Source: Nereida sp. MMG025 (lineage in GTDB: Bacteria; Pseudomonadota; Alphaproteobacteria; Rhodobacterales; Rhodobacteraceae). Taken from it: DNA of 64,000 nt. This document shows positions 45,476 through 63,190 of this stretch, in pieces. Under the pieces are notes generated by a model. It made no database searches and was not told the DNA's origin. It saw only the letters and a list, made by a program, of their open reading frames with translations. The first letter of the stretch is position 1, and each line of letters opens with the position of its first letter. Where the stretch lies: contig NZ_JAKFZN010000004.1 in assembly GCF_021654165.1 (NCBI RefSeq), forward strand, positions 1 through 64,000, given 5' to 3'. The position numbers and the translations under genes are program-made.

Positions 45476-45629
45476 GTCGGGTCCTCTGGGTTGAGGGTGA
45501 AATACAAGTACATAAGAGCGCGATAGGCGCAGCCCTTTGGCTATCGAAGGCAGGTGCCATAACTGGCAAGGTCTGTCAAAGTGATTCCGCGGGTTTGCGA
45601 AAACTAAGAGCGTTTTGGGGCATGACAAG

Positions 45630-46325
45630 ATGAGTGTGACAGAAATTGTGCTGCAAGGTGAGCCGACTGTGACGGTGCAGATGCGTCGCTCTGCGGCGGC
45701 GCGGCGGATGTCGCTTCGGGTTTCCAGTTTGGACGGGCGGGTCAGCCTGACCGTGCCCAAACGCGGATCGGAACGCGAAGCGCTTGCCTTCCTGCACAGC
45801 AAAGAGATGTGGCTGCGCAAACATCTGGCCCGACAAGCCCCCATGATCAATGTAGATCATGGCGTTGAAGTCCCGATTGGCGGCCAGATGTACGAAGTGG
45901 TCCAAGCCACCAAGCGCGGCGTTCATATCGAAGATAGGCAGCTTCGTGTCGGGGGCGCTGCAAACGCAGGAGCCAAGGTGCAGGCCTATCTCAAGGCGCA
46001 AGCGCGGCTGATCCTGCACCGGGAGGCTGATCAGTTTTCGCAGAAACTGGGAAAACCCTATGGCAAGTTAACACTGCGCGACACGCGATCTCGTTGGGGG
46101 TCATGTTCCAGCAGCGGCAATCTGAATTTTTCGTGGCGATTGATCATGGCCCCGCCCAAGGTGCTGTCCTATGTCGCGGCCCACGAAGTGGCGCATCTGG
46201 CCCAGATGAACCATTCGGATCGGTTTTGGGGCGTCTGCCGCGATCTGTTTGGCGCCTATGAAGAGGAACGGACATGGCTCCGCGTGCATGGGGCCTCGCT
46301 TCATCAGTATCGTTTCAAGGATTGA
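45630..46325 (+). CDS. YgjP-like M48-type metallopeptidase domain protein
   Basis: 231 aa. The zinc site is HEVAHLAQMNHSDRFW (HExxH near residue 180), and the preceding TRSRWGSCSSSGNLNFSWRLIMAP segment is typical of the DUF45/YgjP family, which resembles SprT zincins. It is presumed cytoplasmic and its substrates are unknown. The ATG at 45630 is preferred to a TTG five codons upstream. Confidence 0.85.
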   Translation: MSVTEIVLQGEPTVTVQMRRSAAARRMSLRVSSLDGRVSLTVPKRGSEREALAFLHSKEMWLRKHLARQAPMINVDHGVEVPIGGQMYEVVQATKRGVHIEDRQLRVGGAANAGAKVQAYLKAQARLILHREADQFSQKLGKPYGKLTLRDTRSRWGSCSSSGNLNFSWRLIMAPPKVLSYVAAHEVAHLAQMNHSDRFWGVCRDLFGAYEEERTWLRVHGASLHQYRFKD

Positions 46326-46338
46326 CCCGAATTGCGGT

Positions 46339-46348
46339 TGTGATCACA
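46339..46348. promoter_or_regulatory. TGTGATCACA palindrome upstream of GntR regulator
   Basis: A perfect 10-base palindrome, TGTGATCACA, ends 8 bases before the GntR start codon. The same sequence occurs in pairs upstream of sucC and sdhC. A single site over the translation start region is a usual place for autorepression. Confidence 0.6.
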
Positions 46349-46356
46349 CTTGGCCC

Positions 46357-47007
46357 ATGTTGATCCAATCTCGAAACGATCCGTCCCCGTCTGCCGCGCA
46401 TGAACGTGTTTACCGCACCCTGCGGTTGCGCATCATGCATGGTGATCTGTTGCCAGGCCAATCCTTGACGCTTCGGGGCATCGGGAAAGAATACGATGTG
46501 TCGATGACACCTGTGCGCGAAGCAATGCGCAGGTTGGTGGCAGAAGGGGCTTTGTCGCTTTCATCGTCCGGGCGGGTCAGCACGCCCGAATTGTCCAACG
46601 AACGGATCGAAGAACTGGCCGCCATCCGTGCTTTGCTGGAACCCGAGTTGAGCAGCCGTGCGCTGCCGCGGGCCCATATCGCGCTGATTGAACGGCTGGA
46701 AAGCATCAATGAACAGATAGATCAGGTCATCGCGCGGTCTGATGCGGTGGGCTATATTCGGACCAATCTGGAATTCCACCGCACGCTTTACCTCAGGGCT
46801 CAGGCGCCTGCGATGTTGGCCTTGGCGGAAACCGTCTGGCTACAATTAGGCCCGACCATGCGCAAACTTTATGGACGGTTGCGCCGCACTGAAAGCCCCC
46901 GAAATCATCGCCTGATTTTATCAGCGCTCAAGGCAGGGGATGAGCCGGGCTTGCGTCTCGCTGTCCGCTCTGATGTGACAAGCGGTTTGCGGATGCTCAA
47001 ACAGTAG
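46357..47007 (+). CDS. GntR family regulator, FCD subfamily
   Basis: 216 aa. The winged helix is at about residues 15-80 (RVYRTLRLRIMHGDLLPGQSLTLRGIGKEYDVSMTPVREAMRRLVAEG). The FCD ligand domain is at about 85-210 with metal-site-type residues in the FHRTLYLRA region and NHRLILSAL. Such regulators usually sense a carboxylate. Next gene: an agmatinase-family hydrolase, 11 bases downstream in the same operon. The palindrome TGTGATCACA at its own promoter makes it a candidate for the factor that also binds upstream of sucC and sdhC. A second regulator of the same type elsewhere is equally possible. Confidence 0.85.
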   Translation: MLIQSRNDPSPSAAHERVYRTLRLRIMHGDLLPGQSLTLRGIGKEYDVSMTPVREAMRRLVAEGALSLSSSGRVSTPELSNERIEELAAIRALLEPELSSRALPRAHIALIERLESINEQIDQVIARSDAVGYIRTNLEFHRTLYLRAQAPAMLALAETVWLQLGPTMRKLYGRLRRTESPRNHRLILSALKAGDEPGLRLAVRSDVTSGLRMLKQ

Positions 47008-47018
47008 GAGAGCAAGAT

Positions 47019-47966
47019 ATGGGGGAGTATGAAACGGGTCGATTGAATTTGCCGTTCGTGGGCATATCCACCTTCGGGAAATATCCCTATGTGCAAGACT
47101 GGGATGCCATCGACGCGGATGTCGCTGTGATGGGTGCGCCTTTTGATTTTGGCACGCAATGGCGTGCCGGTGCACGCTTTGGCCCGCGCGGTGTGCGCGA
47201 GGCGTCCACGCTCTTTTCCTTTGGCCACGCGGGGGCCTATGACCATGAAGATGACGTGACCTATCTGGATCCCGCTAAGGTGCGCATTGTTGATATCGGT
47301 GATGCAGACATCGTCCATACAGATACTGTGACCAGCCATGCCAACATCCGATATGGCGTTGAAAAGATGCTGGCGGCAGGGGCATTGCCGGTCGTGATCG
47401 GTGGCGATCACTCGGTCAATATTCCTTGTATCGAAGCCTTTGAAGGGCAAGAGCCCTTCCATCTGGTGCAGATTGATGCCCATCTTGATTTCGTAGATGA
47501 ACGCCACGGGGTGACACGTGGGCATGGCAATCCGATGCGGCGGGCAGCGGACAAGCCCTTTGTCACTGGCTTAACGCAAATCGGCATTCGAAATGTATCC
47601 AGCACTGCCAAAGAGGGCTATGCGACGGCCCGTGCAATGGGGTCTGATATCTTGAGCGTCAGGCAGGCCCGTGCTTTGGGGGCGCAGGCGCTGGCTGATC
47701 GAATACCCAAAGGGCGGGTGTATCTGACAATCGATATTGACGGGTTCGATCCCAGTATCGCGCCTGGTACTGGCACACCAAGCCACGGTGGTTTTGGATA
47801 TTATGATGTGCTGGAGTTTATCAACGCGCTGGTGCAACGCTGCGATATTGTGGGGATTGATTTGGTTGAGGTCTCGCCCGACCATGATCAGACTGGCATC
47901 ACCAGTGTTTTGGCCGCACAGGTGCTGCTGAACACCATCGGTCGTATCTTGCATCACCGTTCGTAA
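47019..47966 (+). CDS. speB: agmatinase-family ureohydrolase
   Basis: 315 aa with the two-metal site of the arginase fold: GGDHSVNIP (about residues 127-135), DAHLDFVD (about 153-160) and DIDGFDPSIAPGTGTP (about 237-252). Agmatinase releases urea and putrescine from agmatine; other members act on guanidinobutyrate, proclavaminate or guanidine, so the substrate is not certain. AGGAGAGC precedes the ATG. It is cotranscribed with the GntR regulator. The stop codon lies inside a 28-base palindrome. Confidence 0.82.
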   Translation: MGEYETGRLNLPFVGISTFGKYPYVQDWDAIDADVAVMGAPFDFGTQWRAGARFGPRGVREASTLFSFGHAGAYDHEDDVTYLDPAKVRIVDIGDADIVHTDTVTSHANIRYGVEKMLAAGALPVVIGGDHSVNIPCIEAFEGQEPFHLVQIDAHLDFVDERHGVTRGHGNPMRRAADKPFVTGLTQIGIRNVSSTAKEGYATARAMGSDILSVRQARALGAQALADRIPKGRVYLTIDIDGFDPSIAPGTGTPSHGGFGYYDVLEFINALVQRCDIVGIDLVEVSPDHDQTGITSVLAAQVLLNTIGRILHHRS

Positions 47967-56631: not shown

Positions 56632-57825
56632 TTACCCTTTAACCGCTTTTACGATTTTCTGGGCGCCGTCCTTGAGATCGTCAGCCGCAATCACATCAAC
56701 GTCCGAGTTGTTGATGATCGCTTTGCCTTGCTCGACGTTTGTGCCTTCAAGGCGCACAACCAGCGGCACTTTCAGGCCAACCTGTTTAACAGCCGCAACC
56801 ACACCTTCAGCGATGACGTCACAGCGCATGATGCCGCCAAAGATGTTCACAAGGATGCCTTTGACGTTTGGATCCGATGTGATGATCTTGAAGGCTTCGG
56901 TCACTTTTTCTTCGGTGGCACCGCCACCAACGTCCAAGAAGTTGGCAGGCTCTGCGCCGTAAAGTTTGATGATGTCCATGGTGGCCATCGCCAGACCTGC
57001 GCCGTTGACCATACACCCAATCTCGCCGTCCAGCGCGATGTAGTTCAGATCGAATTTTGAGGCGGCCAGCTCTTTTGGGTCTTCTTCGGTTTCGTCGCGC
57101 AGGGCGGCGATATCGGCGTGGCGGTAGATCGCGTTGCCATCAAACGCCACTTTGGCGTCCAGCACTTTCAGATCACCACTGTCGGTGACGATCAGCGGGT
57201 TGATTTCCAGCATCTCCATGTCTTTTTCCATGAAGGCTTTGTAAAGGTTTGCCATCAGTGCAACACATTGCTTGACCTGCGGACCTTTCAGTCCGAGCGA
57301 GAACGCAATGCGGCGACCGTGAAAGCCCTGATAGCCCGTGGCAGGATCAACGCTGAACGACAGGATTTTTTCAGGGGTCGCGGCGGCAACCTCTTCGATG
57401 TCCATGCCGCCTTCTGTTGAGCAGACAAACGAGACGCGGCTTGTGGCGCGGTCGACCAGAAGGGCCAGGTACAGCTCGGTCTCGATGCCCGATCCGTCTT
57501 CGATATAGATGCGGTTGACTTGCTTGCCTGCCGGACCTGTCTGGTGCGTGACCAATGTGCGGCCCAACATCTTTTTGGCTTCTTGTGCGGCTTCTTCGAC
57601 CGATTTGGTCAGGCGCACGCCCCCTTTGTCACCTGCGTCAGCTTCTTTGAAGCTACCTTTGCCGCGGCCACCTGCGTGGATCTGGGCCTTGACCACCCAA
57701 AGGGGGCCGTCCAACTCACCCGCGGCTGTTTTGGCGTCTTCGGCCTTGAGAACGGCGCGGCCGTCGCTAACTGGAGCGCCATAGCTGCGCAAAAGGGCCT
57801 TGGCCTGATATTCGTGGATGTTCAT
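56632..57825 (-). CDS. sucC: succinyl-CoA synthetase beta subunit
   Basis: 397 aa. ATP-grasp domain (residues 1-230) with [38 protein letters not shown] and the metal site in [14 protein letters not shown]. The C-terminal CoA-ligase domain contains [36 protein letters not shown]. First gene of the leftward suc-odh-lpd operon, with paired TGTGATCACA sites about 115 bases upstream. Confidence 0.96.
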
Positions 57826-57935: not shown

Positions 57936-57966
57936 TGTGATCACAGTTTGAAAAAGTGTGATCACA
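57936..57966. promoter_or_regulatory. paired TGTGATCACA operators upstream of sucC
   Basis: Two perfect palindromes TGTGATCACA at 57936-57945 and 57957-57966, with centres 21 bp apart (two helical turns), separated by 11 bases. The near edge is 111 bases upstream of the sucC ATG. The same arrangement and spacing occurs upstream of sdhC. Confidence 0.7.
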
Positions 57967-63159: not shown

Positions 63160-63190
63160 TGTGATCACGCTTTTGATGGCTGTGATCACA
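63160..63190. promoter_or_regulatory. paired TGTGATCACA operators upstream of sdhC
   Basis: TGTGATCACG at 63160-63169 and TGTGATCACA at 63181-63190, with centres 21 bp apart, about 152 bases upstream of sdhC. A possible -10 TATACA lies at about 63202-63207, which would put the second palindrome over the -35 region. Confidence 0.7.

Follow-up and report, generated by a model that had tools for sequence, protein, structure and literature searches.

The gene at 46357-47007 of the window (the whole 64,000-nucleotide stretch of Nereida sp. MMG025 DNA analyzed here) can be assigned with high confidence as an orthologue of AkgR, with its operator directly in front of it. AkgR of Rhodobacter sphaeroides is a transcriptional activator with the published motif GTGATCAC (PMC6365646); both regulator and motif have already been described, and the window gene very probably represents an orthologue of that described protein. 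Based on its Pfam matches (PF00392, 3.6e-14; PF07729, 1.6e-19; both above cut-offs), the protein is placed in the FCD (FadR-type) subfamily of the GntR superfamily, while structure prediction yielded a low confidence model (pLDDT 63). ATG 46357 was taken as the right start instead of the mechanically assigned TTG 46249, because orthologues have MLIQ... and the position of this ATG in common.

AkgR is reportedly RSP_0981, as Imam et al. are said to have described in 2015. This is consistent with PMC6365646 and with PMC4344238, in which RSP_0981 is a GntR family member predicted to regulate RSP_0967-6, RSP_0974-6 and RSP_0965-62; predicted AkgR control in R. sphaeroides covers sucCD, sdh and sucAB-lpd. 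The name AkgR is the only feature that hints at a response to 2-oxoglutarate. The reaction-centre M chain encoded by G094, one of the genomes compared, is the same protein as a chain in the PDB, and we take that chain to be the crystallised protein of R. sphaeroides. Because of this identity, and because a GntR gene of G094 at 2,223,051 coincides with the published RSP_0489 ChIP peak (peak from PMC4344238), G094 was treated as R. sphaeroides. Its orthologue of the window gene (74% identical) lies just beyond sdhB with a YgjP gene adjoining, at 2.740 Mb, close to the ~2.73 Mb expected for RSP_0981 by interpolation from RSP_0489 and RSP_0773 (positions from PMC4344238), and the next GntR gene beyond it on that chromosome follows at 2.798 Mb. 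The suc-sdh region has no other GntR gene, and this one stands at the RSP_0981 position; the RSP_0981 tag was assigned to it from this position, which leaves little room for another reading. The same paired sites also precede sucC and sdhC of R. sphaeroides. Together with the co-occurrence of regulator and sites described below, this orthology upholds the proposal of the preliminary description that the gene encodes the regulator of the sucC and sdhC pairs.

The palindrome TGTGATCACA had been described as ending 8 bases before the start codon of the regulator gene and as occurring in pairs at sucC and sdhC. The first observation was confirmed (46339-46348, with a gap of 8 bases to ATG 46357), and both pairs exist as well, but one of the sdhC copies (63160-63169) differs by its outer base and reads TGTGATCACG. 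The octamer GTGATCAC within these sites occurs five times in the window, at 46340, 57937, 57958, 63161 and 63182, and when one mismatch was allowed the decamer had nine matches in the window against 2.4 expected, a count of at least nine being reached in none of 100 shuffles. Eleven exact decamers were found in the 3.13 Mb genome and none for the reversed control. The only exact copies in front of genes are the akgR site, the sucC pair and the sdhC copy at 63181, and the seven exact copies outside the window all lie within coding sequences, namely an indolepyruvate-oxidoreductase-like gene, a thiolase gene with an adjoining enoyl-CoA-hydratase-type gene, and cobN-like and mttB-like genes (names given by eye from the translations). 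These seven copies might suggest that the palindrome before akgR likewise arose by chance or as a side effect of neighboring coding sequence; however, 72 of the 80 orthologous loci have it at one fixed position, other surroundings included, and this conservation refutes such a reading and leaves it a negligible probability. Background decamers in the 100 bp before all seven FCD genes of the genome are jointly expected at ~0.001, and GTGATCAC was not found in the loci of the other six FCD genes. Used as a literature query, the decamer returned unrelated papers only. An additional GTGATCAC was observed between sdhA and sdhB (G000:C34:66096), apparently within a small lipoprotein-like reading frame.

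Features of the akgR locus and its predicted target promoters in the window.
Feature	Coordinates	Strand	Evidence or remark
YgjP-like metallopeptidase gene, conserved upstream neighbor	45615..46325	+	PF01863 3.2e-46; adjoins in 60/63 loci
Putative -35 element TTGACC	46322..46327	+	TTGAC position conserved in 66/72 loci
Single operator TGTGATCACA (self-operator) before the regulator gene	46339..46348		same place in 72/80 orthologous loci
Probable akgR orthologue, 216 aa, GntR wHTH (residues 16-68) and FCD (86-205)	46357..47007	+	Pfam; 74% identity to R. sphaeroides gene
Agmatinase-type ureohydrolase gene, 11 bp downstream of the regulator stop codon	47019..47966	+	TIGR01230 above cut-off
sucC, predicted target, heads the minus-strand suc-lpd genes	56632..57825	-	84% identical to R. 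sphaeroides sucC
sucC paired operators, two TGTGATCACA, 21 bp centre to centre	57936..57966		upstream of sucC; pair kept in relatives
sdhC paired operators, TGTGATCACG and TGTGATCACA, 21 bp apart	63160..63190		upstream of sdhC (plus strand)

Regulator and target site pair occur together across the family. Of the 150 genomes examined from the order, 148 had the operator pair (at most one mismatch; control, 0) and 149 had the regulator protein, whereas the 187 genomes from elsewhere in the class contained the pair once and no regulator above 41% identity. Two genomes (G141, best match 32%; G110, 49%) have neither a close orthologue nor GTGATCAC before sucC. Another, G023, keeps pairs at sucC while an akgR orthologue was not found in the genome, which could reflect either an assembly gap or a replacement. 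Outside the order, a 41% identical GntR gene (L192, G253) has GTGATCAC at 45 bp before it, and this site may indicate that the operator is older than its TCA role.

The preliminary description had also drawn a connection to the TCA cycle from the adjacent agmatinase-type gene, via putrescine, GABA and succinate. As a conserved association, this link was ruled out by gene neighborhoods: no agmatinase adjoins akgR in any of the 63 orthologous loci with full flanks, none was found in G337, a genome of the same genus in which lpd comes directly after akgR, and the same ureohydrolase is present in eight relatives without ever adjoining akgR. The agmatinase gene is a neighbor in this genome only, among the genomes examined; it stands outside the conserved system and gives the TCA role no support, although it may be co-transcribed with akgR here. 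A second ureohydrolase-like reading frame was noticed by eye just past the window (G000:C34:70534-71550), at a distance of ~23 kb from the agmatinase-type gene at 47019.

These neighborhoods also bear on whether the gene is a paralogue that merely shares the operator, for instance as a regulator of the adjoining agmatinase, with another protein binding the sucC and sdhC pairs. The short distance between the regulator stop codon and the agmatinase start (11 bp) fits such an arrangement, as do the octamers upstream of the L192 homologue (at -45) and of PS417_07240, the deoxyribonate regulator of Pseudomonas simiae, which is 32% identical to AkgR (PMC6365646). Nevertheless, we regard a paralogue as very unlikely given that the window gene is orthologous to RSP_0981, its proximity to the agmatinase is not conserved, no other protein of the genome matches the regulator at E <= 1e-20, and the other FCD genes have no octamer. 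Neither the FCD genes of the contig nor, by eye, the reading frames listed between 61 and 80 kb included a second regulator next to sdhB past the window.

Conservation of the self-operator is strict across the family. An octamer stands before the start in 72 of 80 orthologous loci compared to ~0.19 expected, the expectation being taken from the remainder of the same loci. With the operator as the reference point of the alignment, 66 of these 72 loci have a TTGAC that starts 18 bases (59 loci) or 19 bases (7 loci) upstream of it, and in 61 of 72 the first in-frame start (ATG) lies 16-18 bases downstream of the operator's first G. In the window TTGACC shares bases with the stop codon of the preceding gene; TTGAC appears to be kept in loci with differing upstream sequence. 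The self-operator also persists where akgR sits away from the suc genes, at ~80 kb in G049 and on other contigs in G057 and G011. It is absent from the remaining 8 of 80 loci, and no GTGATCAC was found before akgR of R. sphaeroides with up to two mismatches allowed; autoregulation is therefore not universal.

With a 17-base spacer behind the -35 element, the -10 element would fall inside the operator and transcription would start at or beside the ATG, and the akgR mRNA is therefore probably leaderless. An operator covering the -10 suggests autorepression, as bound regulator would exclude polymerase from the promoter, and we consider it likely that AkgR represses its own gene through this single operator. 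We propose that AkgR binds TGTGATCACA in dimeric form. In the akgR promoter, the lone operator lies over the predicted -10 and downstream of a good -35 box, so that bound protein would block RNA polymerase and thereby limit the level of the regulator. The earlier suggestion that the position of the site suits autorepression agrees well with an operator over the predicted -10 and behind a conserved -35. The binding sites of activators are normally located at the -35 element or further upstream. Here, the conserved TTGAC at fixed spacing upstream puts the operator over the -10, and the target promoters show the opposite layout, which together make it improbable that the single site instead activates its own gene (i.e., positive autoregulation), as the description of AkgR as an activator (PMC6365646) might lead one to expect.

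At the targets, sucC starts at 57825 on the minus strand with the operator pair upstream, in the same relative position as in R. sphaeroides. Two octamers spaced 21 bases apart (start to start) were found at sucC in 20 promoters and at sdhC in 14. Neither TTGAC at the position seen for akgR nor a conserved TAnnnT-type -10 at a fixed place was found in these 34 promoters. Operators at sucC of G002 (L169) and G133 (L173) are spaced 20 bp, not 21. From this contrast in layout between the targets and akgR we infer that AkgR activates the former and represses the latter. Promoter layout, taken with the activator role known from the literature, suggests that AkgR activates suc and sdh from the paired operators. 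Bound at two operators that are two helical turns apart, upstream of promoters without a recognizable -35 box, AkgR would recruit polymerase to sucC and sdhC and activate these TCA-cycle genes. Overall, we lean towards AkgR acting as a two-way switch, with promoter layout deciding between activation and repression, and towards a self-limiting loop that the Rhodobacteraceae inherited from their ancestor and R. sphaeroides has since lost. An in-phase operator pair would stand in for the -35 box and activate suc and sdh, and a lone operator covering the -10 of a promoter without a leader would repress akgR.

A palindrome recognized in raw sequence could in this way be tied to a described regulator of central metabolism. 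The layout rule sets a lone operator on the -10 against operator pairs at promoters that have no -35, and it applies throughout a large family of marine bacteria; R. sphaeroides may not represent well how the level of AkgR itself is set. What this adds to an otherwise ordinary system is modest: the self-operator is strictly conserved, and R. sphaeroides does not have it.

Compared with known systems, the window system most resembles AkgR (RSP_0981) of R. sphaeroides: both involve a GntR family regulator, the motif GTGATCAC, a gene in the suc-sdh region with the YgjP gene adjoining, and site pairs with a 21-bp period at sucC and sdhC. The two differ in that the R. sphaeroides ygjP-akgR pair lies beyond sdhB (L162, 17660-18951) and that of the window beyond lpd, and in that the akgR promoter has an operator in the window but none in R. 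sphaeroides. PS417_07240 of P. simiae is likewise GntR-like, and its gene is preceded by GTGATCAC (PMC6365646); in contrast, it belongs to a deoxyribonate catabolic cluster and not to the TCA cycle, and its site is located at -47 to -40. Among solved structures, the best relative of the whole protein is E. coli McbR (PDB 4p9f, E 7.5e-24), a distant homologue.
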